From the NCBI RefSeq assembly GCF_019634845.1, contig NZ_JAHCAQ010000002.1, positions 1 to 64,000 of the forward strand: DNA of 64,000 bases, in the 5' to 3' direction. Shown here piece by piece: positions 32,471 to 58,780 of the stretch. Source of the stretch: Dokdonella sp. Lineage in GTDB: Bacteria > Pseudomonadota > Gammaproteobacteria > Xanthomonadales > Rhodanobacteraceae. Position numbers and translations under genes: made by a program. How positions within the stretch are numbered: position 1 is the first letter of the stretch; each line of letters starts with the position of its first letter. Under the pieces are notes generated by a model. That model had not been told where the DNA came from. It did no database searches and saw only the letters and a list, made by a program, of their open reading frames with translations.

Positions 32471-32692
32471 CGGTCGACAGGACGCAGGCAGGCCAACCCC
32501 ACCCTGCGGCGACGGCGTTCGAGGGCGGGCTTGCCGCTGCGCCGAGGGCGCAAGCCGGCAGCGGCGCGGCCTCACCCCCGGCGCATGGCGCCCTCGTCAT
32601 GCGATCGGCGCCCGCGTGCGTCGTTCCGCCGCTGCGGCAACAGCGGCCGTGGCATGGTCATGCGTCACGCATGCGGTTAGCATGCCGGGCCC

Positions 32693-33379
32693 ATGCCTGT
32701 CTTCGACGAAACCCACGCGCGACCTGCCCTGCTCGAAGCGCGCGCGCTTGCCTTCGCACGCAACGACGAGCCGATCTTCGGCCCGCTCGACTTCACGCTG
32801 TCGGCCGGCGAAGTGGTACTGATGGAAGGCGACAACGGCGCCGGCAAGACGACCCTGCTGCGCGTGCTGTCGGGCCTGCTGGCGCCGACCAGTGGCGAAA
32901 TCCGCCTGCACGGCGAACCGCTGACGCTGGCGCGGCTGTCGCCGCAGGTCGTGCTGCTGTCGCACCAGGGCGGGCTCAAACTCGAACTCACGGCGCTGGA
33001 GAACCTGCGTTTCGCCGCCGGCCTCGTCGGCCAACGCAAGGGTATGTCGCCGCCGAGCGCGTTGACCGCGGTTGGACTCGACGGCTATGGCGACGTGCCC
33101 GTGCGGCAACTGTCCGCCGGACAGAAAAAGCGCGTGGCGCTCGCGCGGGTGCTGCTGGCGCCGGTGGCGTTGTGGTTGCTCGACGAGCCTTACGCCAACC
33201 TCGACCGCAGCGGCATCGAACTGGTCAACCGTCTGCTCGAGCGCCATGCGCACGATGGCGGTGCGGCGCTCATCACCTCGCACGGCGCGTACGCCTACAC
33301 CTCGGGCGCGCCGCGGCGCATCGCGCTGCATGATGCGCAGCGCGCCGCCATGACACTGCCGACCGGAGCCATGGCATGA
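32693..33379 (+). CDS. ccmA: Haem exporter ATP-binding protein CcmA
   Basis: ATPase of the CcmABCD complex, which releases haem-loaded CcmE during cytochrome c maturation. 228 aa. Walker A GDNGAGKTTLLRVL, Q-loop LLSHQGG, signature QLSAGQKKRVALARVLL and Walker B LWLLDEPYANLD are all present. It starts an operon in which each gene overlaps the next. The genes it serves, the c-type cytochromes at 36708-41073, are close by. Confidence 0.93.
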   Translation: MPVFDETHARPALLEARALAFARNDEPIFGPLDFTLSAGEVVLMEGDNGAGKTTLLRVLSGLLAPTSGEIRLHGEPLTLARLSPQVVLLSHQGGLKLELTALENLRFAAGLVGQRKGMSPPSALTAVGLDGYGDVPVRQLSAGQKKRVALARVLLAPVALWLLDEPYANLDRSGIELVNRLLERHAHDGGAALITSHGAYAYTSGAPRRIALHDAQRAAMTLPTGAMA

Positions 33380-34059
33380 CCCCCGGCAGCACGCCCGCCG
33401 CCTGCGCCGCCCTGCTGCGCCGCGATCTCACGCTGGTATGGCGCCGCCGCGGCGATGCGTTCAACCCGCTGCTGTTCGCGCTGATCGTGGTGGCGCTGTT
33501 CCCGCTCGCACTCGGCCCCGAGCCCGAACAGCTGCGCCGCATCGCCGCCGGCATCGTGTTCGTGGCCCTGCTGCTCGCTGGGCTGCTGGCGCTCGACACA
33601 CTGTTCCGCAGCGACTACGAGGACGGCTCGCTCGAACAGCTCGTGCTGTCGCCCCACCCGTTGTCGCTGCTGCTGGCCTGCAAGATCGGCGTGCACTGGC
33701 TGACCACGGCGCTGCCGCTCATCGTGCTGGCACCGCTGCTCGGTGAACTGCTGCACCTGCCGGGCGAGGTGCGCGGCGTGCTCGTGGTCGCGCTGCTGCT
33801 GGCCACGCCACTGCTGAGCCTGATCGGCGCGGTCTGCGTCGCGCTCACGGTTGGCATGCACCGCTCTGGTATGCTGCTGGCCCTGTTGGTACTGCCGCTG
33901 TACGTGCCGATCCTCATCTTCGGCGCCGGTGCCTGCAACGCCGCTCAGGCGGGCCTGCCGTCGCTCGCTCCGCTGCTGTGGCTGGCGGCAGCCCTCGTCC
34001 TTGCCCTCGTGCTGGCGCCGCTGGCCTGCGCCGCGGCACTGCGGATCTCGATCTCATGA
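33376..34059 (+). CDS. ccmB: Haem exporter protein CcmB
   Basis: Membrane subunit of CcmABCD, 227 aa. It has six hydrophobic segments, including LIVVALFPLALGPE, and the family sequence GLLALDTLFRSDYEDGSLEQLVLS. The start overlaps ccmA by 4 bp (ATGA). Confidence 0.93.
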   Translation: MTPGSTPAACAALLRRDLTLVWRRRGDAFNPLLFALIVVALFPLALGPEPEQLRRIAAGIVFVALLLAGLLALDTLFRSDYEDGSLEQLVLSPHPLSLLLACKIGVHWLTTALPLIVLAPLLGELLHLPGEVRGVLVVALLLATPLLSLIGAVCVALTVGMHRSGMLLALLVLPLYVPILIFGAGACNAAQAGLPSLAPLLWLAAALVLALVLAPLACAAALRISIS

Positions 34060-34817
34060 ACATCCTGCTGCTCTGGTTCCACAAGCTCGGCTCACCCCCG
34101 ACCTTCTACCGTCTGGCCGGCCTGCTGCTGCCGTGGTGCTATGGCATCGGCCTCGTGCTTGGCCTCGTCGCGCTGTACGGCGGCCTCGTGCTCGCGCCGC
34201 GCGATTACCAGCAAGGTGACGCCTACCGCATCATCTTCGTGCACGTGCCGACCGCATGGATGAGCCTGTTCGCCTATGCCTTCATGGCAGCCAATGCCTT
34301 CATCGCGCTGGTGTGGCACATCAAGCTGAGCGAGATCCTCGCCATCGCCAGCGCGCCGATCGGCGCCGCCTTCACCCTGATCGCGCTCGTCACCGGCGCG
34401 TTGTGGGGCAAGCCGATGTGGGGCACCTGGTGGACCTGGGATGCACGCCTGACTTCGGAACTCGTGCTGCTGTTCCTCTATCTGGGCGTGATCGGACTCA
34501 ACGCCGCGATCGAGGATCGGCGTCAAGCCGCACGCGCGGCCGGATTCCTGGCCTTGGTCGGCATCGTCAACCTGCCGATCGTGCATTTCTCGGTCAACTG
34601 GTGGAACACGCTGCACCAGGGCTCGACGGTGCGATTGATGGGACCATCGAAGATCGATGCGGCAATGGTCTGGCCGCTCTTGCTGATGGCGCTGGCGACC
34701 CATATCTGGTTCTTCGGCAGCGTACTGATGCGTGCGCGCATCGCGTTGCTGCAACTGGAAGGCGGCAAGGACTGGGTGCGCAGGGTGGCGCTCGACGAGG
34801 GTGCGGGCAATGACTGA
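34056..34817 (+). CDS. ccmC: Haem exporter protein CcmC
   Basis: Integral membrane haem handler that loads haem onto CcmE. 253 aa from the ATG at 34056 (overlaps ccmB by 4 bp; the longer upstream frame is not coding). Six membrane helices. The tryptophan-rich motif is WGKPMWGTWWTWDARLTSEL, and the flanking haem-ligand His residues lie in IFVHVPTAWMS and PIVHFSVNWWNTLHQG. Confidence 0.94.
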   Translation: MNILLLWFHKLGSPPTFYRLAGLLLPWCYGIGLVLGLVALYGGLVLAPRDYQQGDAYRIIFVHVPTAWMSLFAYAFMAANAFIALVWHIKLSEILAIASAPIGAAFTLIALVTGALWGKPMWGTWWTWDARLTSELVLLFLYLGVIGLNAAIEDRRQAARAAGFLALVGIVNLPIVHFSVNWWNTLHQGSTVRLMGPSKIDAAMVWPLLLMALATHIWFFGSVLMRARIALLQLEGGKDWVRRVALDEGAGND

Positions 34818-34998
34818 ATTCATTGCAATGGGCGGTTATGCGTTCTACGTGTGGACTTCGGTCGCGGTGTTCTTCGGCGTGCTCGCAGCAGAGGCACTGG
34901 CGCCGTTGGCGCAGCGCCGCCGCGTGCTGAGCGAGATCCGTGGCCGCCTGCAGCGCCGCGCGGCGCGTGCGCAGCCGCCACGCGGGGAGGCACCATGA
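34810..34998 (+). CDS. ccmD: Haem exporter protein CcmD
   Basis: Small single-helix subunit of 62 aa that holds CcmABC and CcmE together. It has the typical [15 protein letters not shown] start and a basic C-terminal tail ([18 protein letters not shown]). The gene overlaps ccmC by 8 bp. Confidence 0.88.
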
Positions 34999-35468
34999 AT
35001 CCGGTTCGCAAGCGCCGCCTCATCCTCATTGCGCTCGTGCTGGCCGCGGTCGGCGTCGCCACCGGCCTCACCGTGCTCGCGCTGCAGCAGAACATGACCT
35101 ACCTGTATTCTCCGAGCGAAGTCGAGGCGGGCCATGCCCCGGCCGGCGCGCGCTTCCGTCTCGGCGGCGTCGTGCTCGAGCATTCGATCGAGCGCACCCG
35201 TGATTCGCTCAAGGTCGATTTCATCGTGACCGATCGCATCCGGCAGCTGCCGGTCGAGTACACCGGCATCCTTCCCGACCTGTTCCGCGAAGGTCAGAGC
35301 ATCGTTGCGACCGGCACTCTGCAAGGCGGCCGCTTCGTCGCCACCGAGGTGCTCGCCAAGCACGACGAGACCTACATGCCGCCGGAAGTGCGCGATGCGA
35401 TCGAGAAGGCCAAACACGTCGAAGCGGCTGGCGCCGCGCCGGCGGCATCAACCCACGCGGCGCAGTGA
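34995..35468 (+). CDS. ccmE: Cytochrome c maturation haem chaperone CcmE
   Basis: Periplasmic haem chaperone, 157 aa from the ATG at 34995 (GGGGAGG ribosome binding site). It has an N-terminal membrane anchor, an OB-fold, and the covalent-haem His and the Tyr in [13 protein letters not shown]. Its last 21 bp overlap the convergent LysR gene. The ccmF, ccmG and ccmH genes that normally follow are absent from this window. Confidence 0.93.
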
Positions 35469-36437
35469 CGCCCCCGCTGCTGGGCCCGCTTCGCGAGCGG
35501 TCAGGTTCATCGACATGCTGCCTTCGATCGCGCTGCGCAGGTTCTCGCGCATGCGCAGCGAAAGGAAGTCGATGAAGCAGCGCAGTGCGGGTGTCATGCC
35601 GGCGCGCGACAGGAACAGCACATACAGATTCATCTCCGGCAGCGCCCATTTCGGCAGCACGCGCACCAGCGTCCCGGCCGCCAGGTCGGCACGACACAAC
35701 AACGGTGGCAACTCGGCCACGCCGCAGCCGGCCAGCGCGGCGTGCCGCAGCATGATGAGGTCCTCGGTGCGCAGACGTGGCCGATGCGCGATCTGGCGGA
35801 CTGTGCCGCGACCGTCATCGAGTTGCCACAGCGGCCGATCGGCGCAGCCGCGCATCCCCGAGACACTCGGCAACTGACGCAAGTCCTCCGGCTCGCGTGG
35901 CTCGCCGTATCGGGCAAGCAGCTGCGGACTGGCCACCAGCACGTGACGCGGCACCGGAAACGTGCGCACCACGCAACTGGAGGTGCGCACGCTCGGCGCG
36001 ATGCGCAACGCCACGTCAAAGCCTTCGCTGATGAGGTCGACTTCGCGGTTGGTGACCTCGAGCACGACTTCCACCTCCGGGTAGTCGCGCATGAAGTCGC
36101 AGAACACTGGCGCCAGCACCGCCTGGGCGAAATTGACCGGGCTGGTGACCCGCACGATGCCACGCGGTACGCCGCGCACATCCTCGATCACCTCGTCGGC
36201 GCGGGCGACTTCCTCCAGCACACTGCGGCAGCGCTCGTAGTAGCGCTGGCCGACTTCAGTGATGTGCAGCTTGCGCGTGGTGCGATGGATCAGGCGCACG
36301 CCGATGCGCTCCTCCAAGCGCGCCAAGTGCTGGCTCAGCAGCGACTTGGAGACGCCCAGCGCGTCGCTCGCCGCACTCAGGCTACCGTGCTCGACGATGC
36401 GCGCGAAGTACAGCAGGTCGTTGAGATCGTTGCCCAT
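35448..36437 (-). CDS. LysR-family transcriptional regulator
   Basis: 329 aa from the ATG at 36437. The N-terminal winged helix-turn-helix ([25 protein letters not shown]) is of the AaeR/CrgA-like LysR subgroup, with [14 protein letters not shown] next. The effector domain covers about 90-295. It is divergent from the decahaem cytochrome gene across a 270-bp control region and is a candidate regulator of that operon. Its 3' end overlaps the end of ccmE on the opposite strand. Confidence 0.9.
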
Positions 36438-36625
36438 CGCGCACCCCGGCGGCCGTGGCGGTACCAGCATAGCAATGTGAAGCAGCAACCCGATTGTTCA
36501 CCGCAACATTCAGTTGTGCGCAAAGAATAGCCGCAGCGTTCGAATACCAGAACGATCTTTTCCCGAATGCGGGCTGGTCAAGCCGCCGTTCACGGCCGAC
36601 ACTCGGGACATGCAGGGCAATTTGT

Positions 36626-36650
36626 CGCACCCGGTCACAAACCGGGTGCG
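36626..36650 (+). promoter_or_regulatory. Perfect inverted repeat upstream of the decahaem cytochrome gene
   Basis: CGCACCCGGT and ACCGGGTGCG are 10-bp arms around the 5-nt loop CACAA, ending 57 bp before the mtrA-like start codon, in the control region shared with the divergent LysR gene. It could be an operator or a 5'-leader hairpin. No T-run follows. No -35/-10 pair is convincing. Confidence 0.55.
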
Positions 36651-36707
36651 TACCGCGCGAGGGGCGCGACATTGCCACTGTTCGCCGGCAACCGGGGGAA
36701 GCGAACG

Positions 36708-37760
36708 ATGAGCCTGCTGCGCATCACAGCGATCCTGCTCCTTGGCGGAGCATTGTTCAGTCACGGCAACGGCGCCCATGCGCAGCAGTCACGCGAGCAA
36801 CTCGCGCGCGGTCTGCCTTCGTCCAACCTCAGCGGCACCGATGTGCAGGCCACGCAGGCGAGCCTGCTCGCGGCGCCCGGCTTCGCGCGGGCGCGTGTGG
36901 CGAGCAATCCCGCCGCCGCCGATGCGACCGCAGTCGGTGAAGCAACCTGCACGTCCTGCCACCAGCTCGAAGCCAATCACTTCACCCATACCCTGCATGC
37001 GCTGGGCCTGCATGCGGCCAGCCAGGCCGACGCCTCGATCCCGGTCTGCGAGGCCTGCCATGGCCCAGGCTCGCGCCACGCGCAGGCGCCGTTCGAAAAG
37101 GGACTCATCATCGCTTTCACCAAGGGTGGCGGCACCCCGACCGAGGTGCAGACGGCCACCTGCCTCAACTGCCACAAAGGCGGGCCGCGCGATCACTGGA
37201 GCGGCTCTGTGCACCAGCGCAACGACCTGTCGTGCAGCGATTGCCACAACCCGATGGCCAACTTCTCGGCCGAGGGCTTCATGGCCAGGAACTCGATCAA
37301 CGACACCTGCGCGCAATGCCACAAGGACGTCCGTCTGCAGTTCAACCGCCGCTCGCACATGCCGCTGCCCGAAGGGCAGATGAGCTGCGTCGATTGCCAC
37401 AATCCGCATGGCTCGATCACAAACCCCCTGCTCAAGACCAACACGGTCAATGAAACCTGCTACCAGTGCCACGCCGAAAAGCGCGGTCCGTTCCTGTTCG
37501 AGCACGCACCGGTGCGCGAAAACTGCCTCAATTGCCACTCGCCGCACGGCTCCAACCAGAACACGCTGCTGGTGGCGCCGGTACCGTTCCTGTGCCAGCA
37601 GTGTCACACCGGTCAGCGCCACCCCAACGACCTGCACACGGCGCAGTCGTTGGCAACGGGCAGCACGCCGGACGAACGGGTCATGGGACGTGGCTGCCTG
37701 ACGTGCCACGCCAACATCCACGGCTCCAACGCGCCGTCGGGCCCGCGCTTCCACGAGTGA
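36708..37760 (+). CDS. mtrA: Decahaem c-type cytochrome, MtrA/DmsE/PioA family
   Basis: Periplasmic electron carrier that plugs into the MtrB barrel and conducts electrons across the outer membrane. 350 aa from the ATG at 36708 (GGGGGAAG ribosome binding site). It has a signal peptide ending near GNGAHAQ. Ten CxxCH haem motifs are visible in order: CTSCH, CEACH, CLNCH, CSDCH, CAQCH, CVDCH, CYQCH, CLNCH, CQQCH, CLTCH. The spacing and the PEGQMSCVDCHNPHGS segment match the DmsE/MtrA family. The gene is the first of an operon with the barrel (15 bp on) and a c4-type cytochrome. Whether the electrons flow outwards (metal reduction) or inwards (iron oxidation, as in PioA/MtoA) cannot be read from the sequence. 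Confidence 0.93.
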   Translation: MSLLRITAILLLGGALFSHGNGAHAQQSREQLARGLPSSNLSGTDVQATQASLLAAPGFARARVASNPAAADATAVGEATCTSCHQLEANHFTHTLHALGLHAASQADASIPVCEACHGPGSRHAQAPFEKGLIIAFTKGGGTPTEVQTATCLNCHKGGPRDHWSGSVHQRNDLSCSDCHNPMANFSAEGFMARNSINDTCAQCHKDVRLQFNRRSHMPLPEGQMSCVDCHNPHGSITNPLLKTNTVNETCYQCHAEKRGPFLFEHAPVRENCLNCHSPHGSNQNTLLVAPVPFLCQQCHTGQRHPNDLHTAQSLATGSTPDERVMGRGCLTCHANIHGSNAPSGPRFHE

Positions 37761-37775
37761 GGGAGGAGGTCGACC

Positions 37776-40346
37776 ATGTCCACGATACGCCTGCCCCTGC
37801 CACTGCGTGCGCTGCCGCTCGCGCTGACCTTCGCCCTTGCACCCGCCATCGCCGCCGACACCGGTGTCGGCGTCGATACCTGGCGCGCCAACAAGTTCGA
37901 TCCGAGTGCCGGTGCCGCCAGCCAGTCGGTCGACCATCGCGGCACGAGCTGGCTGCGTTCAGGCGAGCTGCGCACGCCGACCGGGTACCTGTACATGTGC
38001 CCGGCGGAAGACCCGCATGTCGACGACTTCGGCGCCTGGATCGGCTACGGCGTGCTGCAGATCGGCGCTGTCGCGACTTCGGGCGATGATCGCAACGCGC
38101 TGTGGAATCGCTACGTCGACTGGGATAGCGGCCTCGTCCTCGGCCTGCTCGACTACACCTGGCAGCGCCCCGCCGATGGCACTTACGCCAACGTGCGCGC
38201 CAGTCGCATCAGCGAGGACGACCAGTATTACCAGGCGGTGTTCGGCCGCGCCGGCAGCTACAAGGTACAGGCCTTCCTGCGCGACATGCCGAACGTGCTC
38301 AGCCGCAACGCGCGCTCGCTGTGGGACGGCGTCGGCAGCAACACGCTGACACTACCGGCCGGACTCACACCCGCGGCGAGCACGCCGCAACAGGTCGCAA
38401 CCGTCATCGCGGCGCGGCCCGATCAGAGCCTGTCGGTCACGCGTTCCAAGCAGGGCCTTGGCTTCAACATGTACCTGAGTTCGCAGTGGACGGCCTATGC
38501 CAACCTCGCCGATGAGCAACGCAGCGGCGCACGTCCTTATGGCGGGCCATTCTTCTTCAACTACCCGTTCCCGGCCAACGGTGGGGTGTTGGAAACCCCC
38601 AAGCCAATCGACGACCACACGCTGAACCTCAACGCCGGCCTGCGCTATGCCAGCCGCAGCTGGCGCATGGAACTAGGCTACAGCGGCTCGTTCTACCGCG
38701 ACCGCTGGACGCGCTACACCTACCAGATGCCGTTCGCGCTGTGGGCCGTCGTTCCCGGTTCGGCGTCGGCGCCACTGACCACCGGTCAGATGGCGATGGA
38801 GCCCGACAACGACTACCACAACGTCAAGGCCAGCTTCACGCGCAAGCTGCCGTTGGATGGCGAGCTCTCGCTCACCGCCTCGGCCGGTCGCATGAGCCAG
38901 GACGACACGCTGATCGCACCGATCGATTGCCAAGGCGTGTTCGGCATCGGGCTCGGTGGCAACCTCGCACTCGGCCCGGCCAACCCATTCCTGTTCGACT
39001 GTTCGAAATGGAACACGCCGGCTGCACTGTCACGGCGCACGGCCGACATGAGCATCGACACCACGCTGCTCGATGCGCGGGCTTCGCTACGCCCCACCGC
39101 AACGCTGTCGCTGCGTGGCGGGCTGCGCTTCAATCGCGATGACTACCGCAATGGCTACCTGGCGTGGAATCCGTTGACCGGCGACTATGGCTACATCGCG
39201 GAGAACGGATCCCAGGGCAGCATCGTGCCTGGCGAAGTGGGGTTGTTCAATCCGTTGAGGATGGCATCCAACCTCACCCGAGTGCGCAGTATGCCGCTCG
39301 ATCTGCAGACGATCGATGCCGATGTCGGCGCCGACTGGCGCCTTGGCAGCGCCAACACACTCGGCGCAACGCTCGCGCTCAACCGCTTCGAACCAACCAA
39401 TCGCGAACGGACCCGGCTCGACGACACCAGCCTGAAGCTGACTTGGGTCAATCGCACCACCGACTGGCTGACCCTGCGCGTCAACTACACATGGAAGGAC
39501 TCCAGTGGCGACCGCTACAACTTCGATCCCTATCACCACTTCTATTCCACCAGTCTGCCCGGCTATGTTCCGCCGGCCGCAGGCACGCCCTCGCACACGG
39601 TCGAGGCGATGCGCAAATACGACCTGTCGAGCCGACGCACGCACAAGGTCGACGTGATGGCAACCGTCATGCCGCGCGACGACATGACGATCAGCGCTTC
39701 GCTGCGCGGCGACTGGAACTCCTACGATGCCGTCATCGGTCGGCGCGCGCTCAATACCAACAGCGCCACGTTGCAGTGGGAATGGCAGCCACGACCGACC
39801 ACGAGCCTCAGCCTCTACGGCGCGTGGGATCGCTCCCAGCTCAGCCTGTCGAATGTGCAGGATCAACAGGCCGGTGCCGGCGTCGACCCGTCGCTGGGCG
39901 GCCCCAACTACGCACTGATCGGCCAGTGGTGGCTGCGCGATTCGCAGCGCAACCTCTACGGCGGCGCCACGCTGGACCATCGCATCGGCCACGTGCGCAT
40001 CGACGCCAACTGGAACTACGTGCAATCGCGCGGGCTCGACGACTACAGCTACGCCGGCTCGAGTGCACTGGCGTACCCGGGCACCGTGACCGGCACCGGA
40101 CCCGGCAGCGGCGGCTTCCCCGCCATGACCTACCGCGTGCAATCGTTCACGGTGGGCGTCACCGTACCGATCCACCAGCGCGTGTCGCTGCGCGTGTTCG
40201 ATTACTACGAGCGCGGCCACGTCAGCGACTGGCACTACGCCGGTTTCGACGCCAACCGCATTTACGACCATCGCGTCTACACCGATGGCGGTCCGCAGAG
40301 CTACCGCGCGAACCTCGTCGGCGTGCTCCTCAACGTGAAGTTGTGA
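37776..40346 (+). CDS. mtrB: Outer-membrane beta-barrel, MtrB/PioB family
   Basis: Outer-membrane barrel that sheathes the decahaem cytochrome. It is 856 aa, longer than most MtrB proteins (about 650-800). Signal peptide LPLALTFALAPAIAAD, then alternating amphipathic strands rich in Tyr, Trp, Arg and Asp, with family features such as EDDQYYQAVFGRAGSY, LNLNAGLRYASRSWRMELGY and a C-terminal strand AEN-like ending RANLVGVLLNVKL. The N-terminal CxxC seen in Shewanella MtrB is not evident; the few Cys (YMCPAED, PIDCQG, FDCSKW) are isolated. A GGGAGGAGG ribosome binding site precedes the ATG. It is 15 bp behind mtrA and 10 bp before the c4-type cytochrome gene. Confidence 0.9.
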   Translation: MSTIRLPLPLRALPLALTFALAPAIAADTGVGVDTWRANKFDPSAGAASQSVDHRGTSWLRSGELRTPTGYLYMCPAEDPHVDDFGAWIGYGVLQIGAVATSGDDRNALWNRYVDWDSGLVLGLLDYTWQRPADGTYANVRASRISEDDQYYQAVFGRAGSYKVQAFLRDMPNVLSRNARSLWDGVGSNTLTLPAGLTPAASTPQQVATVIAARPDQSLSVTRSKQGLGFNMYLSSQWTAYANLADEQRSGARPYGGPFFFNYPFPANGGVLETPKPIDDHTLNLNAGLRYASRSWRMELGYSGSFYRDRWTRYTYQMPFALWAVVPGSASAPLTTGQMAMEPDNDYHNVKASFTRKLPLDGELSLTASAGRMSQDDTLIAPIDCQGVFGIGLGGNLALGPANPFLFDCSKWNTPAALSRRTADMSIDTTLLDARASLRPTATLSLRGGLRFNRDDYRNGYLAWNPLTGDYGYIAENGSQGSIVPGEVGLFNPLRMASNLTRVRSMPLDLQTIDADVGADWRLGSANTLGATLALNRFEPTNRERTRLDDTSLKLTWVNRTTDWLTLRVNYTWKDSSGDRYNFDPYHHFYSTSLPGYVPPAAGTPSHTVEAMRKYDLSSRRTHKVDVMATVMPRDDMTISASLRGDWNSYDAVIGRRALNTNSATLQWEWQPRPTTSLSLYGAWDRSQLSLSNVQDQQAGAGVDPSLGGPNYALIGQWWLRDSQRNLYGGATLDHRIGHVRIDANWNYVQSRGLDDYSYAGSSALAYPGTVTGTGPGSGGFPAMTYRVQSFTVGVTVPIHQRVSLRVFDYYERGHVSDWHYAGFDANRIYDHRVYTDGGPQSYRANLVGVLLNVKL

Positions 40347-40356
40347 GGTGGGCGAG

Positions 40357-41073
40357 ATGAATGCGAACACGATGCCCCGCCGCGCCCTGTTCATCCTGCT
40401 GCCGCTGCTGCTGGCGGCCGCCGTCAGCGCGCAGGCCCAATCGACGGCCAAACCGACCGCAGCGGGCAAATGGCTCGACAAGCGCGGCCATGCGCCGATC
40501 CACGGCGATGCCGCCGCGGGCCAGACCAAGTCCGAAGTGTGTCGGGCCTGCCATGGCCAGGACGGCAACACGCCGGTGCCGACGTTTCCCAACCTCGGCG
40601 GTCAGCGGGCCGATTTCCTGTATTGGGAACTCATCGAGCTCAAGCACGGATATCGCTACCAGTCCCCGATGACCGAACAGCTCGCGCCACTCAGCGATCA
40701 GGACGTGCGCGATCTTGCGGCCTTTTTCGCCTCGCAGCCGCTGGCTCACGCCCACGACGCCAGTGCTGATCCGGCCGCCATCGAGCTGGGCGAGCGAATC
40801 TTCCACAGCGGCGACGCGCAGCGCGGCGTGCCGCCCTGCCAGGGCTGCCACGGCACCAACGCCGACGGCATCGCGCAGCGTCCGGGTTGGCCGATCCTGC
40901 AGGGCCAGCACCCCGCCTACCTTGCCGCGCGCCTGCGCGCCTATCGCGATGGCGACCCACCCAACTCGAGCAACGACTTCATCATGAACGGCGTCGCGCG
41001 CGGGCTCGACGACGCCGCCATCGATGGCCTTGCCGCGTGGCTGGTGTCGCGCGGGGGCACGCAGCACCAGTAA
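40357..41073 (+). CDS. Dihaem cytochrome c (c4 type)
   Basis: Periplasmic carrier, 238 aa from the ATG at 40357 (a GTG at 40348 also in frame). Signal peptide LLPLLLAAAVSAQAQ. Two class I haem domains: VCRACHGQDGN in the first half and PCQGCHGTNADG in the second, with axial Met candidates in YQSPMTEQ and FIMNGVA. It is probably the redox partner between the decahaem conduit and the inner-membrane chain. It closes the operon. A GC-rich inverted repeat lies in the convergent gap at 41074-41202. Confidence 0.92.
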   Translation: MNANTMPRRALFILLPLLLAAAVSAQAQSTAKPTAAGKWLDKRGHAPIHGDAAAGQTKSEVCRACHGQDGNTPVPTFPNLGGQRADFLYWELIELKHGYRYQSPMTEQLAPLSDQDVRDLAAFFASQPLAHAHDASADPAAIELGERIFHSGDAQRGVPPCQGCHGTNADGIAQRPGWPILQGQHPAYLAARLRAYRDGDPPNSSNDFIMNGVARGLDDAAIDGLAAWLVSRGGTQHQ

Positions 41074-41202
41074 GCGTGCCGCCGCCACGCGCGGCACTCG
41101 TGACGCCCGCTGCCGGTATCGGTGTCGGCGCTGCGCTGCAGCGAGCGGCGGGTCGGCGTGCGCCGACCACCGATCCGCGTGCCGGTTCGGCGCGGCGGGC
41201 CG

Positions 41203-43620
41203 TCAGTCCGGCGCCAGATTCTGGTAGATCTCTTCTTCCTGCAGGAAATGCAGGCGCAAAATCGCATCGAGCGCATGCAACGTGCGCTGCAGTTCCTGCC
41301 GTGCGCGCGCATCGACCTGCGGCGCTGACAGCCCAGCGACGAGGCCAGCCAGACGACGGTGCAGGCGGAAGATTTCCCGGTGACTGCGACTCATCGCCGC
41401 CAGCGGGTCGTCGCCGCCGAGCAAGGCGGCGATCTGCGGATAGACCTCGTGGTCGTCGGCCTGCTCGTGCGGCAGCACGCGTTCGCGCAGCATCGCCTCC
41501 ACCTCCCGCACGGCGGCAACGAACGCGTCGCCCTGCAGTGTCGGCAGGCGATCGGCCACTGCGCTGAGGCGGTCGAGCACGGGCTCGAGTTCGCGGTGCT
41601 CGGCATGCAAATGCTCGACCTGCGCCGGATCGAGGCGATACTGGCTCGTGCGCAGCGGCTGGATGCGCAGCACGCGCAGCGCATTGAGAATCACCGCCAC
41701 ATCGATCGCCTCCTGCAGCGCCGCGCCATACAACGGCGGCAGGTAGCCGAGCGCGGCCACAGCCATCGCCAACAACGACAAGCCCATGCCCGCGAATACA
41801 CTCTGCAGCGCGATCCGGCGCGTGTCGCGCGCGATGCGCAGCGCCTCGGCCAGGCGATCGAGGCGGTCGGCGATGAGGACGATGTCGGCCGCCTCGGCCG
41901 AGGCGGTGGCACCGCGTGCGCCCATCGCCACGCCGACGTCGGCGGCGGCCAGCGCGGGCGCGTCGTTGATGCCGTCACCCACCATCACGGTGCGCCCGTT
42001 GGCACGCGCGGCCTTGATCACCGCGAGCTTGCCGGCCGGCGTGTGCTCGGCCAGCACCTCGTCCACACCCAGGCCCGCGCCGATCGCCTCGGCCACTTCG
42101 CGGCGATCGCCCGTGAGCATCACGATGCGGCCGATGCCACTGCGCCGCAGCAGGCGCAGCGCGCGCGGCGCTTCCACGCGCAGCTGGTCGGCCAGCAACA
42201 ACATGCCGGCAAACTGTCCATCGACCGCAACCAGCACCGCCGACGCGCCCTCGTTGAGTGAACGCTCCAGCAGCGCGCGCATCGGCAGCGGCACGCTCGC
42301 CACGCGGCTCACGTAATCGAGCGAGCCCACGCTCACGCGCGCGCCATCGATGCGGCCGCTGATGCCGGCGCCGGCACTCTCGCTGACTTCCCGCGGTACC
42401 TGCAGCGCGAGCTGGCGTTGGCGCGCGGCGCCGACCACGGCGGTCGCGATCACGTGGCTCGACAACTGCTCCAGCGAGGCCGCCAGCGCAAGCAGGTGGT
42501 CGGCATCCGCCGTGGCCACGCCTTCGATGCCGATCAGGCGCGCCTGACCGCCGGTCAATGTTCCGGTCTTGTCGAAAAACAGGGTCTGGCTCGCCGCGAG
42601 GCCTTCGAGGGCGGCGCCGTCCTTGACCAGGATGCCGCGGCGCGCACAGCGCGAAATGCCGGCCACGACGGCGATCGGCACGGCCAGCAGCAGTGGACAG
42701 GGCGTGGCCACCACCAGCACCGCGAGCGCGCGCAGCGGATCGCCGCTCACGAGCCAGGCCAGCGCCGCCAGCAGCAGCGCGAGCGGCACGAACCACAGCG
42801 CGTAGCGATCGGCGAGCCGCACCGCTGGCGCGCGTGATTGCTGCGCCGCTTCGACCAGGCGCACCACGGCCGCGAACGTGCTGTCGGCAACGACCGCAGT
42901 GGCCACCATGTCGAACGCATCGCCGGCGTTGATCGCGCCACTGCGCAGGCGATCGCCACGCAACCAGGTCACCGGCAGCGACTCGCCGGTGAGCGTGGAC
43001 TCGTCGAGCACGGCGCGCTCGGCGGTGAGCGTGCCATCGACCGCGAGCACCTCGCCGTGACGCACCACGAGGCGGTCGCCCGGCGCGATCGCCTCGAGCG
43101 GGATGTCGACGAGCCCGCCGCCCTCATAGCGCTGCGCACTGCGCGGCGCATGCGCGAGCAATGCCGACAGCTCGCGCCGCGCGCGCCGTTCGGCATGACT
43201 CTCCAGCAGCGTGCCGCCAGCGAACATGAGCGCGATCACGGCGGCGGTCAGATGCTCGTGCAGCAGCAGTGCGCCGCCGATTGCGACCAGCGCCAGCACA
43301 TCGACCCCGGCCTCGCGCCGCCGCAGCGCGCCCAATACCTGCCACGCCAGCGGCAGCAGCGCCGCGATCGCCGCGAGGATCCAGGCCGCGGTGGCGACGG
43401 CACGCTCGCCGAGCAGCCACGTGAGCGCACCGAGCACGAGCCCGCCACCGCAGATGACGAAAACGCCCAGATCCACACGCCAGCGATCGAACACGGCCAG
43501 CCCCGCATGACACGCCGGCGCGAAGCCCGTCCGCAACGCGTGGTGCCGCCGCCGGCAACCGGCACCACACGCGAGCATACGTGTTTGCGGCGACGCTGTG
43601 CAGCCGCGCCAGCACCTCAT
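41203..43620 (-). CDS. P1B-type metal ATPase with C-terminal hemerythrin domain (P1B-5-like)
   Basis: Metal-exporting ATPase, 805 aa from the ATG at 43620, which overlaps the cytochrome b561 stop (ATGA); 43575 is another possible start. No N-terminal HMA domain, but a CWRGC motif. Motifs: actuator STLTGES, transmembrane metal site ATPCPLLLAVP, phosphorylation site FFDKTGTLTGG, nucleotide domain with SSHV in place of the usual HP, and VGDGINDAPAL. After the last helices comes a hemerythrin (HHE) domain (about 660-800): HAEHRELEP, LPHEQADDHEVYP and LRLHFLQEEEIY carry His and Glu for a di-iron site. TPC plus hemerythrin defines the P1B-5 group, associated with Fe/Ni in earlier studies. The hemerythrin domain may sense iron or oxygen. 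It is convergent with the iron-type cytochrome operon. Confidence 0.88.
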   Translation of the reverse strand: MRCWRGCTASPQTRMLACGAGCRRRHHALRTGFAPACHAGLAVFDRWRVDLGVFVICGGGLVLGALTWLLGERAVATAAWILAAIAALLPLAWQVLGALRRREAGVDVLALVAIGGALLLHEHLTAAVIALMFAGGTLLESHAERRARRELSALLAHAPRSAQRYEGGGLVDIPLEAIAPGDRLVVRHGEVLAVDGTLTAERAVLDESTLTGESLPVTWLRGDRLRSGAINAGDAFDMVATAVVADSTFAAVVRLVEAAQQSRAPAVRLADRYALWFVPLALLLAALAWLVSGDPLRALAVLVVATPCPLLLAVPIAVVAGISRCARRGILVKDGAALEGLAASQTLFFDKTGTLTGGQARLIGIEGVATADADHLLALAASLEQLSSHVIATAVVGAARQRQLALQVPREVSESAGAGISGRIDGARVSVGSLDYVSRVASVPLPMRALLERSLNEGASAVLVAVDGQFAGMLLLADQLRVEAPRALRLLRRSGIGRIVMLTGDRREVAEAIGAGLGVDEVLAEHTPAGKLAVIKAARANGRTVMVGDGINDAPALAAADVGVAMGARGATASAEAADIVLIADRLDRLAEALRIARDTRRIALQSVFAGMGLSLLAMAVAALGYLPPLYGAALQEAIDVAVILNALRVLRIQPLRTSQYRLDPAQVEHLHAEHRELEPVLDRLSAVADRLPTLQGDAFVAAVREVEAMLRERVLPHEQADDHEVYPQIAALLGGDDPLAAMSRSHREIFRLHRRLAGLVAGLSAPQVDARARQELQRTLHALDAILRLHFLQEEEIYQNLAPD

Positions 43621-44159
43621 CCGGCGCGCTTGCGCCCCGTGAACATCGCCCGCACGAGGTTTTCGCGGTGCCGCACACTGCTCAAGATCACGCCGGCCAC
43701 GTGCAGGCCGACGAAGACCAGCGTGGTGGTTGCGAACAACTCGTGCACCTCCTCGAGCAGTTCGCTGCCCCAGCCGACGTCGGTGGTCTGCAGCCAACCG
43801 GTGGCGCCGGTGGCGGTCAGCAACAGCAACAGCGCGAGGATCATCGCCGCACCGGCCGGGTTATGGCCGAGATGGCGCACCTCGCGGCGCGCCATCACGT
43901 CCCGCAGGTAGGCGAGCAGGCTGTGCGGCGAGGGCACGAAGTCCGTGAATCGCGCATGGGCGGTACCGGCGAACCCCCACGCGATCCGGAACGCGACAAG
44001 GCCGACCACACCATAGCCGAACGCCTGATGCAGGCTGCCGCCGTCCTCAGCGAGCAGCCACGCACCGGCGAAGGCGATCACGAGCGACCAATGAAACACC
44101 CGCACCGCGATGTCCCATACGAGCACCGTAGCGTGGCCGACCGGCGAGGATGTGCTCAT
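43617..44159 (-). CDS. Cytochrome b561-family membrane protein
   Basis: Di-haem b membrane protein, 180 aa, ATG at 44159. Four helices with His ligands in VRVFHWSLVI, GSLHQAFGYG and GLHVAGVIL. The short VRHRENLVRAMFTGRK C-terminal motif is typical of the b561/Ni-Fe-hydrogenase-type cytochrome b subfamily. It accepts electrons from quinol or an exported partner. The gene overlaps the PepSY gene by 4 bp and the ATPase gene by 4 bp. This order (PepSY, cytochrome b, divergent two-component system) recurs in proteobacteria. Confidence 0.9.
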   Translation of the reverse strand: MSTSSPVGHATVLVWDIAVRVFHWSLVIAFAGAWLLAEDGGSLHQAFGYGVVGLVAFRIAWGFAGTAHARFTDFVPSPHSLLAYLRDVMARREVRHLGHNPAGAAMILALLLLLTATGATGWLQTTDVGWGSELLEEVHELFATTTLVFVGLHVAGVILSSVRHRENLVRAMFTGRKRAG

Positions 44160-44443
44160 TTTGCGCCCGCCTGGCTGACCACGTGTGCGTCGGCGGGACT
44201 GACGAACAGCTCGACCTTCGCCCCATCCTTGTCGCGCGCGTACACCTCGTAACAGGTCCCGCTGGACTTGACCTTGCCGACCACGTAACCCTGCGCCTCG
44301 AAGCGCACCTTGACCTCGGTGGTGCTCAGCCATTCGGATTTGGGCTTGTCGGTGCAGTCGCCGTCGTAGGTGGAGGCATGCGCCGTTGGTGTGGCGGCGG
44401 CGAGCGCAAACGCGATGCCGAGAGGGAGCAGATTGACGTGCAT
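44156..44443 (-). CDS. Periplasmic PepSY-domain protein
   Basis: 95 aa with signal peptide GIAFALAAATPTAHA. One PepSY domain (KSEWLSTTEVKVRFEAQGY, VGKVKSSGTCYEVYARDKDG), two Cys. PepSY proteins bind and restrain exported peptidases or sense periplasmic redox and metals, and often sit with cytochrome b561 and a two-component system. First gene of the minus-strand operon, with a 186-bp gap to the divergent response regulator gene. Confidence 0.88.
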   Translation of the reverse strand: MHVNLLPLGIAFALAAATPTAHASTYDGDCTDKPKSEWLSTTEVKVRFEAQGYVVGKVKSSGTCYEVYARDKDGAKVELFVSPADAHVVSQAGAK

Positions 44444-44529
44444 GATGATTCCTCATTTCTGGAGTGATCCGGCGATTCCGGTGTGCCGCACGGCACAGCT
44501 GCACGGTGAGCGCGGCGGCTGAAGTCAGT

Positions 44530-44585
44530 CTTAAGGCCCCGTCGCGTGGGCGCCGGTGCAGCGTTGTGCTTCAGAAGCGCTTAAG
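44530..44585. promoter_or_regulatory. Paired CTTAAG sites in the divergent pepSY/response regulator control region
   Basis: CTTAAG occurs at 44530-44535 and 44580-44585, exactly 50 bp apart, in the shared control region of both operons. TTAA-containing half-sites are used by QseB/PmrA-type OmpR regulators. Only the two copies and their spacing are seen; binding is inferred. CTTAAG is rare in DNA this GC-rich. Confidence 0.45.
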
Positions 44586-44629
44586 CTGGGTCGACCATAC
44601 CGGTCGGCGTCCAACACGGAATCCCGACG

Positions 44630-45295
44630 ATGCGCCTCCTGCTGGTGGAAGACGATCCGCACTTGGGCAACGGCATCGAAGTCGGCCTCAGGCAGGCCGG
44701 CTTCGCGATCGACTGGGCCCACGACGGACGCAGCGCGCAACTCGCGCTGCAGACCACCGCCTACGAACTTGTCGTGCTCGACCTCGGCCTGCCCCGCGTG
44801 GACGGCATCGAGGTACTGCGCCAATTGCGCGCCCGAGGCAGTGACGTGCCGGTACTCATCCTGACCGCGCGCGATACCATTCCTGACCGCGTCGACGGGC
44901 TTGAGGCCGGCGCCGACGACTACCTCGTCAAGCCATTCGACCTCACCGAGCTCATCGCCCGTGTCCGCGCCCTGCTGCGCCGCGCGCACGGCCGCAGCGT
45001 CGATGCGATCCGCTATCGCGACCTCGTGCTGCAGCCGCAGAGCCTCACGGTGACGCGCGGGAGCGAGACGATCGCGTTGTCAGGGCGAGAGTGCGCGGTG
45101 CTCGTGGAACTGCTTGACCATCGAGGCACAGCGCTGTCGCGGACCCGGCTCGAGGAGAGCCTCTATGGCTGGAATGAGGAGATCGAGAGCAACGCGATCG
45201 AGGTGCACGTCCACAACCTGCGGCGCAAGCTCGGCAGCGAGCTGATCCGGACGATCCGCGGCGTGGGTTACCTGATTCCGCGGGATGAGCCATGA
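44630..45295 (+). CDS. OmpR-family response regulator (QseB/PmrA-like)
   Basis: 221 aa. The receiver has acidic pocket VEDDPHLG, phospho-acceptor Asp in LVVLDLGLPRVDG and LTARDTIPDRVDGLEAGADDYLVKPF (quoted in parts). The winged-helix output domain (about 125-220) contains SGRECAVLVELLDHRG and NAIEVHVHNLRRKLG. Translation of the kinase gene is coupled (ATGA at 45292-45295). The likely targets are its own operon and the divergent pepSY-cytochrome b-ATPase operon. Confidence 0.93.
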   Translation: MRLLLVEDDPHLGNGIEVGLRQAGFAIDWAHDGRSAQLALQTTAYELVVLDLGLPRVDGIEVLRQLRARGSDVPVLILTARDTIPDRVDGLEAGADDYLVKPFDLTELIARVRALLRRAHGRSVDAIRYRDLVLQPQSLTVTRGSETIALSGRECAVLVELLDHRGTALSRTRLEESLYGWNEEIESNAIEVHVHNLRRKLGSELIRTIRGVGYLIPRDEP

Positions 45296-46644
45296 CGCGG
45301 TTCTCGCTGCAACGCCGCCTGTTGCTGCTGCTGGTCGGCAGCGCGCTGTTGGTATGGGTGGCGATGCTGGTCGCGGGCCACGACAAGGCACGCGCCGAGA
45401 TCAATGAACTCGCCGACGTGCGCCTGCAGCAGGCCGCTCGCACCTTGCTCGTGCTCGACCTCAAACGGCTCGCGCGGCTTGTACAGGCTGGCGCGGCAGC
45501 AATGCAAGCGTTCGACGCCGACCGCGACGACAGCGTGCAGCCACTGGCGTTCCAGGTGTGGAACGATCGCGGCGAGCTGCTGCTGGCCAGTGCCGGCGCG
45601 CCGGCCATCCCGGATGCGGATGCGGACGGCTACGCCACGCGCACGATCGACGGGCGTGCCTGGCGCAGCTACAGCGTGGTGGACCGGCATCACGCCTACC
45701 GCGTGACCGTGCTCGAACCGCTGGACGTGCGCGAACACCCGGTGCGTGAGCTTACCGGACGCATGGGTCAGGTGCTGCTATGGTCGCTGCCGCTGCTCGC
45801 CCTGCTCACCTGGGCCAGCATCCGTCGAGGCCTGCAGCCACTGGCCCGGCTGTCGCACGCACTCGCCGCGCGCGATGCCGGCCGCCTCGAACCGTTGCAA
45901 GTGCAGCGGATACCGCGCGAGGTCGGCACACTGGTGGCAGCACTCAACGACCTGCTGGCGCGGCTCGCGCGCTCGCTCGATCGGGAACGCACGTTCACCG
46001 CAGATGCCGCGCACGAACTGCGCACGCCGCTGGCCGCGATCAAGGTGCAGGCCGAGGTCGCGCTGCGCGCCACGGACGAGGCGGCGCGACGCACGGCGAT
46101 CGCGCAGGTGATCGCCGCGGTCAATCGCACCAGCCACCTTGCGGAGCAATTGTTGCTGTTGGCGCGACTGGAGTACGCACCCGCTGGGGGGCAGGCCCAC
46201 ATGGATCTCGCGCAGCTCGCTGCCGACGCGATAGCGCGACACGCCGACGCAGCCCTCCGCGCCGGCATCGAGCTTGAGCTGAACGCGAGCGCAGGGTCGA
46301 CGCTGCGTGGCAACGCGGCGATGCTTTCGGTCCTCATCGATAACCTGCTCGACAACGCGATCAAGTACGGCAACCACGGCGGGCGTGCCGTGGTCGAGGT
46401 GCGGCCCGACGGCGATGTGTTGCTGCTGCGCGTGGCCGACGACGGTGCCGGCGTTGCACCGGACGAGCGCGAGCGCCTGCGCGACCGCTTCTTCCGCGGC
46501 AGCGACAACCGCGCCACCGGCAGCGGGCTGGGCTTGTCGATCGTCGATCGCGTCGCGGCCGCCCACCACGCGCGCGTCGAGTTTGGCAGCGGACTCACAC
46601 CCGGCTCCGGATTCGGCGTCAGCGTTCGCTTCACCCCTAGCTGA
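45292..46644 (+). CDS. Sensor histidine kinase (QseC-like)
   Basis: 450 aa. Two membrane helices (about 9-30 and 160-182) flank a periplasmic sensor loop of some 130 residues; then a HAMP-like linker, HisKA with AADAAHELRTPLAAIK-type H box (seen as ADAAHELRTPLAAIKVQ) and HATPase with IDNLLDNAIKYG, DDGAGVAPDE and GSGLGLSIVDRVAAAH. It forms a pair with the preceding regulator. The signal is unknown; the operon it faces suggests metal, iron or redox. Confidence 0.92.
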   Translation: MTRFSLQRRLLLLLVGSALLVWVAMLVAGHDKARAEINELADVRLQQAARTLLVLDLKRLARLVQAGAAAMQAFDADRDDSVQPLAFQVWNDRGELLLASAGAPAIPDADADGYATRTIDGRAWRSYSVVDRHHAYRVTVLEPLDVREHPVRELTGRMGQVLLWSLPLLALLTWASIRRGLQPLARLSHALAARDAGRLEPLQVQRIPREVGTLVAALNDLLARLARSLDRERTFTADAAHELRTPLAAIKVQAEVALRATDEAARRTAIAQVIAAVNRTSHLAEQLLLLARLEYAPAGGQAHMDLAQLAADAIARHADAALRAGIELELNASAGSTLRGNAAMLSVLIDNLLDNAIKYGNHGGRAVVEVRPDGDVLLLRVADDGAGVAPDERERLRDRFFRGSDNRATGSGLGLSIVDRVAAAHHARVEFGSGLTPGSGFGVSVRFTPS

Positions 46645-46675
46645 CCAGTCCGGACGCTGCCCGCTGCGGCGCCAC

Positions 46676-46720
46676 TTGCACGGCTCGCACTTTCTCTATA
46701 TGTTAGTAATTGCTCACTTA
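46676..46720 (+). promoter_or_regulatory. Promoter and probable TetR operator of the export operon
   Basis: TTGCAC at 46676-46681 and TATGTT at 46699-46704, 17 bp apart, make a plausible sigma-70 promoter. An imperfect palindrome TTAGTAATTGCTCACTTA (46703-46720; symmetric at TxAGTxA/TxACTxA) overlaps the -10 and the start point. It is AT-rich against GC-rich surroundings. This is the expected place for autorepression by the TetR protein that follows. Confidence 0.6.
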
Positions 46721-46734
46721 CTTTTGGATTGCCG

Positions 46735-47343
46735 GTGACCTCACGTCCGACCTATTTGCCAGCCGAAGAGCGCCGCACGGCTACCGTGGAAACCGTGGTC
46801 AAACTGGCGGCCGAGCAGAATCCGGCCGACATCACCACCACCGCGATTGCCGAGCGCATGGGACTGACCCAGGGCGCGCTGTTCCGCCACTTCCCCACCA
46901 AGGAAGCGATCCTCGAGGCGACCATGTCATGGGTCAGCCAGCGCCTGCTCGCACGCATCGACGAGGCTGCCGCCGCGGCAGGCTCGCCGCTTGCCGCGCT
47001 TGAGGCGGTGTTCATGGCCCACGTCGACTTCGTCGCGCGCCACCCCGGAGTGCCTCGGATGGTGTTCGCCGAACTGCAGCGCGGCCGCGACAGCCTGCCG
47101 CGCAAGCTCGTGCAGACGATGATCCGCCACTACGGTGAGCGGCTGCGCAAGCTGCTGGACGCGGGCAAGGCTGCGGGTGACATCGACCCGCAGCTCGATG
47201 TCGACGCCGCCGCGACGCTGTTCATCGGCACGATCCAGGGTCTGGTCGTGCAATCGCTGCTCGCCGGCGCCACCACGCGCATGCGCCGCGATGCCGCCGC
47301 GGCATTTGCGATCTACCGTCGTGGCATTGGGGTGCACCGATGA
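46735..47343 (+). CDS. TetR-family repressor (CecR-like)
   Basis: 202 aa from the GTG at 46735; a TTG at 46729 is also possible. The helix-turn-helix (TTTAIAERMGLTQGALFRHFPTKEAI) is quoted in part as ITTTAIAERMGLTQG and GALFRHFPTKEAILE. The C-terminal domain resembles CecR (YbiH) of enterobacteria, which controls the YbhGFSR exporter. Its stop overlaps the adaptor start (ATGA), so it is the first gene of the same operon. Confidence 0.9.
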   Translation: MTSRPTYLPAEERRTATVETVVKLAAEQNPADITTTAIAERMGLTQGALFRHFPTKEAILEATMSWVSQRLLARIDEAAAAAGSPLAALEAVFMAHVDFVARHPGVPRMVFAELQRGRDSLPRKLVQTMIRHYGERLRKLLDAGKAAGDIDPQLDVDAAATLFIGTIQGLVVQSLLAGATTRMRRDAAAAFAIYRRGIGVHR

Positions 47344-48365: not shown

Positions 48366-48366
48366 G

Positions 48367-51299: not shown

Positions 51300-51302
51300 C
51301 CC

Positions 51303-53962: not shown

Positions 53963-53973
53963 AGGAGAAGACC

Positions 53974-54177
53974 ATGCAGATCAACGTCGGTACCCTAGAC
54001 CGCGCAGCGCGCATCATCATCGGACTGGCGTTGCTGAGCCTGCCGCTGTGGCTGGACTCACCGTGGCGCTGGGGCGGGCTCATCGGCATCATGCCGTTGG
54101 CCACCGGCCTGGCTGGGCGTTGCCCGGGCTATCGCCTGCTCGGCCTCAACACCTGCCACCTGCGCAAGCCCGAGTGA
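53974..54177 (+). CDS. DUF2892 small membrane protein (YgaP-like)
   Basis: 67 aa with AAGGAGAAG as ribosome binding site. The layout is the YgaP C-terminal/DUF2892 type: basic N-terminus, two hydrophobic segments (ARIIIGLALLSLPLWL and GGLIGIMPLATGLAG) and Cys residues in GRCPGYRLLGLNTC. Related proteins interact with sulfurtransferase or inner-membrane thiol systems. It is 11 bp after the duct gene and 7 bp before the metallo-hydrolase gene. Confidence 0.85.
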   Translation: MQINVGTLDRAARIIIGLALLSLPLWLDSPWRWGGLIGIMPLATGLAGRCPGYRLLGLNTCHLRKPE

Positions 54178-54184
54178 GCATGAC

Positions 54185-57581: not shown

Positions 57582-57618
57582 AGATGCGCCCCGTACCGCA
57601 TCAAGCATTGGAATCGAC

Positions 57619-58074: not shown

Positions 58075-58374
58075 CGGCGTTCGGGCTCATGGCGGGTGCG
58101 CCGGCCGCGATGCGTTCCCGCCTTCGCGGAAGGCCGCGCCACGGGTGCCCTCGTTGCAACACGACCGTAGGAGGTGAGCGTTGCCTGCGAGTCGGTTGCA
58201 GTGCAATCCATGGTGATTTGGCGCGCGCTGCTGGGTGCAGCGCGGGCCGTGCACCGTACTGCTGGCGGCGATCGTTCGCGCTGCCGAACGCACTCGTTCG
58301 ACCACTTGAAACGCCGCACCAATCGGCGCATGGTTCCCGCCTCAGCGTGGGCTGAGCCAGACAGGAGACAGACG
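58075..58374. other. Intergenic DNA before the HiPIP gene
   Basis: 300 bp with no gene that I can support; the frames that are open here lack domains. I see no strong promoter. A GGAGG at 58171-58175 has no coding follow-on that looks genuine. Confidence 0.35.
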
Positions 58375-58725: not shown

Positions 58726-58750
58726 TCCCCGCCTCGGCAGTCCCACCCGG

Positions 58751-58780
58751 CGCGGGAGCACGCGTTGCTCCCGCGCTTTT
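58751..58780 (+). terminator. Rho-independent terminator after the HiPIP gene
   Basis: CGCGGGAGCA (58751-58760) and TGCTCCCGCG (58766-58775) make a 10-bp stem with a 5-nt loop, followed by CTTTT. It ends 55 bp past the stop codon. Confidence 0.88.

Follow-up and report, generated by a model that had tools for sequence, protein, structure and literature searches.

The locus and its reading frames

The DNA analysed here is a window of 64 kb from Dokdonella sp., which carries on its plus strand, between positions 36708 and 41073, a compact operon coding for a decahaem cytochrome, an outer-membrane barrel of the MtrB/PioB family and a dihaem cytochrome. The genes are separated by gaps of 15 and 10 bp. 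An earlier note on this DNA had described a tight operon of a ten-CxxCH cytochrome, an 856-residue barrel and a dihaem c4-type cytochrome, and its coordinates and parts were confirmed. The gene of a high-potential iron-sulphur protein (HiPIP), which had not been mentioned there, lies 17 kb from the operon; no second HiPIP was found in the genome. The four genes are the following:

36708-37760, plus strand: exported decahaem c-type cytochrome of the MtrA/DmsE superfamily (350 amino acids (aa), ten CXXCH, TIGR03508)
37776-40346, plus strand: MtrB/PioB-family outer-membrane barrel (856 aa; PF11854, Foldseek match to 6r2q_B)
40357-41073, plus strand: exported dihaem cytochrome c4 (238 aa, two CXXCH; signal recognised by eye; PDB 6q2u_A)
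58375-58725, plus strand: HiPIP with a signal resembling those of twin-arginine translocation (by eye; PF01355, 80.1 bits, cut-off 22)

That the host might be a member of the Lysobacterales had been considered, and it does belong to that order, sharing the genus Dokdonella with Dokdonella fugitiva. Its genome (3.26 Mb in 27 contigs) is 90.24% complete, and every genome-wide absence given below bears an assembly gap of about 10%. Stretches fetched from relatives, plus some from the same genome, were numbered as loci (L036 and following), and all context counts are confined to these stretches.

The ratio of non-synonymous to synonymous substitution rates (dN/dS) was 0.12-0.26 for the decahaem and barrel genes compared with L056, L057 and L058, and for the c4 and HiPIP genes compared with L056 only. 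By these alignments the operon genes are under purifying selection. Among 12 barrels in 11 named relatives, four (L056, L057, L058 and L062) share the length of 856 aa, and the other open frames range from 849 to 871 aa. Because dN/dS is low and the barrels of relatives are similar in length, there is no sign in the operon of the frameshift that had been named as a possible flaw. A scan for promoters and terminators gave nothing above shuffled sequences. The plasmid search returned a single distant match of 37.8% identity.

The decahaem cytochrome and its barrel

The ten CXXCH motifs of the decahaem protein stand at residues 81, 114, 152, 176, 201, 227, 251, 273, 296 and 330. In 2000 shuffles of its residues the motif occurred 0.09 times on average and three times at most. 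In an alignment of five sequences (the window and four relatives), 12 histidines beyond those of the motifs are invariant, and bis-His haems are therefore possible, since this number would suffice for them. Two family models had been proposed for a search. The decahaem protein was recognised by TIGR03508, named 'DmsE family' by NCBI (261.6 bits, cut-off 192.2). The barrel stayed under the cut-off of TIGR03509 (215.8 against 240.05 bits) and was far over that of PF11854 (293.9 against 23 bits).

The PDB entry 6r2q, titled 'Structure of the Mtr complex', is the closest relative of both proteins. Chain A matched the decahaem protein with 210 bits. With the structural model of the barrel, the top Foldseek match was chain B (E=1.6e-28, template modelling score 0.72 by target length), followed by a next best match at 6e-10. 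This model is of modest confidence (mean predicted local distance difference test score of 60) and unusable at residues 1-82. It displays 24 strands of at least nine residues, with the long loops confined to one face, which would be the outer one according to the usual topology of outer-membrane barrels. Conservation per long loop (0.57-0.76) is about equal to that of the whole protein. It is lower on average in the short turns of the opposite face (0.13-0.85). Three cysteines are invariant among 13 aligned barrels, and two of them belong to a loop of 49 residues; no N-terminal CXXC was seen.

By homology with the solved Mtr structure and by the barrel model, the decahaem protein would sit inside the barrel and wire the cell surface to the periplasm. 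That wires of the MtrA type are insulated by their barrel is established (PMC10654088; this and the following articles are cited for statements in the accessible parts of their text). The presence of a conduit across the outer membrane, together with its partners, is well supported.

Identity of the third protein

The third protein of the operon matched the solved cytochrome c4 6q2u_A with 142.5 bits. The CXXCH motifs of both haems are conserved, and both methionines are present in all 40 aligned c4 rows, the window included. Because of this homology and of the conserved methionines, from which the Met ligation is read, the protein is identified as a cytochrome c4 with two c domains and His/Met haems. 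Such His/Met-ligated c4 proteins are high-potential carriers. The c4 sequence of 6q2u recurs in the PDB entry 8smr, which contains a cbb3 oxidase subunit.

PdsA was rejected as the identity of this protein, the model NF049874 giving 50.8 bits for a cut-off of 330. A lipobox-like signal was observed in four of the 40 c4 rows (L038, L057, L058 and L059), and the c4 of the window lacks it. For the c4 gene, identity is 85% with L056 and 47-48% with L057-L059, in which the decahaem and barrel genes keep 66-83%. Replacement of the c4 gene is possible.

A clade of its own

The decahaem tree was calculated by maximum likelihood on 104 rows, without PioA or named MtoA rows. Eight loci repeating contigs that were fetched by name (L036, L039-L043, L148 and L149) were omitted. 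L038 (open frame of 708 aa; decahaem 77%, barrel and c4 present) was excluded from this tree and from the context counts by the length filter. Neighbouring genes were labelled as MtrC, CymA or DmsEFAB from haem counts and motif patterns, with a check by hidden Markov model (HMM) for one DmsA, that of L165 (TIGR02166, 1012 bits).

The 39 decahaem proteins of decahaem-barrel-c4 operons form a single clade with a support of 100/100. The same group was recovered in a quick tree of the 85 barrels that passed the filter, where the 38 barrels of the c4-linked type are united with full support in the Shimodaira-Hasegawa-like approximate likelihood ratio test (SH-aLRT 100). Elsewhere in the tree are found the MtrC-adjacent rows, four rows labelled DmsEFAB and six of the eight CymA-adjacent rows. 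The other two (L116 and L157) have long branches and attach weakly at the base of the clade side (88/93 and 94/43). The four DmsEFAB-labelled rows sit far from the c4 clade, in a supported group of eight rows with MtrC-adjacent rows of the same family. The clade is separate from them, which speaks against the placement with DmsE/DmsF that the earlier note had named as part of a possible refutation.

A c4 gene follows the barrel gene in 39/39 clade copies (38 by script, L143 by table). By haem count, MtrC-like and CymA-like neighbours were found in none of the 39, against 23/65 and 13/65 of the other copies. A HiPIP gene lies downstream on the same strand in 9/39 clade copies, the window included, and in 0/65 of the others.

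In the fetched loci the operons of the c4-linked type all fall in one clade, which is represented in two families of the order, and named strains carrying the operon include two of Dokdonella fugitiva (L060 and L061) and Tahibacter. In D. fugitiva the HiPIP gene is not linked to the operon. Barrels over the PF11854 cut-off were detected in 124/398 sampled genomes of the order and in 8/9 of the genus. A tandem pair of complete decahaem-barrel-c4 operons was seen at L064:6533-16192, in a metagenome-assembled genome labelled Rhodanobacter sp.

Nearest to the clade are four operons of the same order in which no c4 gene was found (L134, L135, L138 and L155), joined to it at 100/97. Directly upstream of the decahaem-barrel pair of L135, an open frame of 1137 aa (L135:3185-6598) shows two CXXCH and, by eye, propeller-like repeats. 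Its product is possibly an enzyme wired to a conduit of the MtrAB type.

Position of the HiPIP gene

In eight relatives, out of 38 clade copies other than the window, a HiPIP homologue is located downstream of c4 on the same strand and within 4 kb. In seven of these loci it directly follows c4, its stop codon being 1.1-1.6 kb beyond that of the barrel gene. In L056, the nearest relative, the distance is 3.8 kb, past one ATPase gene.

Comparison by blastn showed that positions 32609-43591 of the window are collinear with L056 and that 58268-58725 resumes there 90 bp further on. The HiPIP gene is parted from the operon by the following stretch:

43592-58267, no strand: 14.7-kb stretch delimited by blastn of the window against L056, L057, L058, L059 and L062

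The stretch is absent at the same place from L056 and also from L057, L058 and L059. Because these last three lack it too, it is better read as an insertion in the lineage of the window than as a loss in L056. Its content by Pfam comprises a cytochrome b561, a PepSY protein, parts of an ATP-binding cassette exporter, an outer-membrane efflux protein, a beta-CASP hydrolase, LpxR and a cytochrome c'. Inspection by eye added a two-component system, a TetR-type regulator and an HlyD-type protein. No convincing repeats were found at both ends of the stretch, and no transfer RNA in 40000-60000.

Searches of the whole genome

The earlier note had pointed out the lack of an MtrC/OmcA-like protein in the window. 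This holds for the genome, in which TIGR03507 found no match and paired CXXCH motifs were matched only within the decahaem gene of the operon. An MtrCAB system with an overlooked MtrC was rejected on these TIGR03507 and PF09699 searches of the 90.24% complete genome. No match was obtained with PF03264 for proteins of the CymA/NapC/ImoA type, nor by HMM for RuBisCO. With PF00384 a single protein was found, NuoG (598 bits, cut-off 470), and no DmsA-type molybdoenzyme was seen beside it.

Among six PF00115 proteins, two were over the cut-off, namely the cbb3 subunit CcoN (662 bits) and the aa3 subunit CtaD (694 bits). The other four (L185-L188, on contigs C25 and C1) had no NCBIfam match at E 1e-20, and the frame of L188 may be badly started. 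They are perhaps divergent oxidases or nitric oxide reductases.

Neighbouring genes and regulation

The operon is surrounded by the following features:

32693-33379, plus strand: ccmA, cytochrome c maturation
33376-34059, plus strand: ccmB, cytochrome c maturation
34062-34817, plus strand: ccmC, cytochrome c maturation
34995-35468, plus strand: ccmE, cytochrome c maturation (the ccm genes together span 32693-35468)
35448-36437, minus strand: divergent LysR-type regulator, by LysR models (open frame extending to 36488)
36538-36562, no strand: candidate LysR operator GTTCGAATACCAGAACGATCTTTTC, between the divergent LysR and decahaem genes
41203-43797, minus strand: P-type metal ATPase with a fused hemerythrin domain, located between c4 and the HiPIP side

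The models TIGR01189, TIGR01191 and PRK13254 were over their cut-offs in the ccm cluster, and ccmB was deduced from gene order. In L054 and L154, which belong to the second of the two families, the operon lies inside a ccm cluster, flanked upstream by ccmA/B-like and downstream by ccmC/E-like genes.

For the regulator, the best LysR model gave 255 bits and none was over its cut-off among 25 of 53 models. A homologue occupies the same place in some relatives. The site GTTC-N8-(G/A)AAC-N-ATCTTTTC, in strict or looser form, was detected upstream of the decahaem gene in 6/39 loci scanned (the window, L056, L059, L062, L038 and L150). These are exactly the loci with the LysR of the window or one 54-72% identical to it, and the loci with a LysR of 41-47% identity or none are without the site. 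The element at 36538-36562 is on this ground a candidate operator. The ATPase-hemerythrin gene occurs at its position in the window and, among loci L036-L066, only in L056 (same contig as L041). A link of its product to iron handling is possible.

Direction of electron flow

On balance, we lean towards the view that this conduit of a separate clade works inward, bringing electrons of a donor outside the cell, probably Fe(II), by way of c4 and HiPIP to an oxidase in a heterotroph. At the cell surface the donor would reduce the decahaem wire, which would in turn reduce cytochrome c4 and, in parallel, the HiPIP, and these high-potential carriers would feed the cbb3 or the aa3 oxidase. Such a line would be short, without a quinone step, because no partner of the CymA/ImoA type was found, and it would run downhill from the surface to the oxidase, as a supplementary energy source or for the disposal of Fe(II). 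Given that no CymA-type protein was found and that c4 and HiPIP are the partners, a line running inward to an oxidase is the simplest reading. Direction, donor and purpose are all inferred here, and the choice of Fe(II) as donor follows the examples of PioABC and MtoAB. Known chains of Fe(II) oxidation include carriers of both kinds, Cyc1 and CycA as c4 proteins, Iro and PioC as HiPIPs (PMC10654088). The high-potential MtoD cannot serve a partner at the quinone level and may serve a terminal oxidase (PMC13390432).

The earlier note had favoured an Fe(II)-oxidising conduit similar to PioAB or MtoAB. Its conduit stands, and uptake gains the HiPIP gene found beside c4 in relatives. The likeness to these two systems is incomplete, as the N-terminal region of PioA is absent and no CymA/ImoA partner was found.

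Several points weigh against inward flow. Direction cannot be read from sequence: MtoA and PioA form no function-specific clade, and MtrCAB can run in reverse (PMC8805035). According to the same source, outer-membrane cytochromes are dispensable for iron reduction by mutated MtrA/MtrB. A dihaem partner is no proof of uptake, because the dihaem PdsA belongs to MtrCAB pathways and a dihaem gene with weak likeness to c4 (24-44% identity) lies downstream in 6/65 of the other copies as well. The HiPIP gene is nearby in a minority of copies and 17 kb away in the window. HiPIPs were found in 214/398 genomes of the order and 8/9 of the genus sample, and almost all listed genomes of the family have one. 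Since presence alone says little, only the position of the HiPIP gene was counted as evidence, and co-occurrence was dropped. The genome gave no RuBisCO match, and, as cited in PMC11366258, a Rhodanobacter isolated from culture KS failed to oxidise Fe(II) on its own.

An outward conduit survives best among the alternatives, although we regard it as unlikely. It would pass electrons from the level of bc1 and c4 out of the cell, where they would be accepted by a strong oxidant, for example H2O2, Mn(III/IV), soluble Fe(III) or an electrode. MtrAB homologues can run both ways and dihaem carriers of the PdsA type serve MtrCAB (PMC8805035), MtrCAB is reported to reduce H2O2 (PMC9732548), and the match of the decahaem protein to the 'DmsE family' model is in line with outward flow. 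Four listed articles name both Dokdonella and extracellular electron transfer, most of them, judging by title, on fuel-cell or bioelectrochemical communities. Neither CymA/NapC nor MtrC/OmcA was found in the genome or beside the 39 clade copies, however, and the potential of a His/Met c4 should be too high for the reduction of ferrihydrite.

Two further alternatives are considered quite improbable, and equally so. The conduit could serve a dedicated surface redox enzyme encoded elsewhere, as DmsEF serves DmsAB. The two-CXXCH frame of L135, in a relative of the clade without c4, starts this line of thought, as it is located 26 bp upstream of the decahaem gene, and long barrel loops with about the conservation of the protein as a whole would be in keeping with a docking surface. 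However, no such enzyme recurred beside the clade copies among the neighbour-clustering matches listed, the clustering being swamped by antisense frames. The other alternative keeps the inward direction and gives it a protective role, in which Fe(II) is oxidised outside the cell under iron stress with little gain of energy. The genome without a RuBisCO match and the P-type ATPase with hemerythrin domain adjoining the operon in the window and L056 are compatible with it, and pioABC is tied not only to phototrophic oxidation but also to the response to iron stress (PMC10654088). The divergent regulator, in contrast, is of the LysR type, by family not an iron regulator, iron-responsive sites not having been sought. 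Finally, the pair as DmsEF of extracellular dimethyl sulphoxide respiration, suggested by the NCBI name of the matched model, was rejected as extremely improbable on the decahaem tree and the search of the 90.24% complete genome, which found no DmsA-type enzyme.

Under the favoured inward flow, the operon may represent a third wiring plan, leading through c4 and HiPIP straight to the terminal oxidases, not to the quinone pool via CymA/ImoA and not to a photosystem, and being clade-wide in heterotrophs of the Lysobacterales. This proposal is tentative, and we hold it with some doubt. The order consists of soil and wastewater bacteria. If the plan is true, lithoheterotrophic electron uptake would be common in an order where it has hardly been suspected, and if clade members take up electrons, this group of heterotrophs would have a hidden lithotrophic input. 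In named strains the operon offers a clear example of a conduit that has neither quinone-level nor surface cytochrome partners next to it, and the question of direction is therefore directly testable.

Comparison with known systems

No description of a decahaem-barrel-c4 operon in Lysobacterales was found in the open-licence literature, among the matches listed. The nearest prior mention concerns Rhodanobacter, for which MtoAB-like proteins and later also CymA- and MtrB-like ones are reported (PMC11366258).

MtrCAB of Shewanella and MtrCAB-PdsA have a decahaem protein and a barrel in common with the Dokdonella system, the Mtr complex 6r2q being its closest relative in the PDB, and PdsA is also dihaem. 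They differ in MtrC/OmcA and CymA, neither of which was found here, and in the third protein, here a c4 that reached 50.8 bits on the PdsA model. In the chain of Acidithiobacillus, composed of Cyc2, rusticyanin, Cyc1 (a c4) and the aa3 oxidase, an outer-membrane entry likewise feeds c4 and an oxidase, and the HiPIP Iro is also listed (PMC10654088). The entry there is a fused monohaem porin, unlike the decahaem-barrel pair.

MtoAB of Sideroxydans lithotrophicus shares the decahaem-barrel pair and the gene of a high-potential periplasmic carrier, MtoD, in its cluster (PMC13390432). MtoD is monohaem, however, and the Mto cluster has ImoA/CymA, for which the Dokdonella genome had no PF03264 match.

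PioABC of Rhodopseudomonas palustris TIE-1 resembles the system in its decahaem protein, its MtrB/PioB barrel, its HiPIP carrier (here in relatives) and the lack of a surface cytochrome (PMC6831781). The N-terminal region of about 200 aa of PioA (PMC6831781) is missing in Dokdonella, where the first CXXCH stands at residue 81, signal peptide included. Dokdonella adds a cytochrome c4, and its genome is without the RuBisCO match sought by HMM. The HiPIP gene is also less closely tied to the operon than in PioABC, as only 8 of the 38 clade copies other than the window have it within 4 kb. Its host is presumably not a phototroph, unlike the bearer of PioABC.

By sequence comparison, the Dokdonella system matches the decahaem family, Pfam barrel and HiPIP models as well as a solved c4, and lacks one defining feature each of PioABC, MtoAB, MtrCAB and DmsEFAB. 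Because the PioA extension, CymA/ImoA, MtrC and DmsA were each not found, it is best described as a variant of the porin-cytochrome conduits, and the system it most resembles in its probable way of working is PioABC with an added c4.
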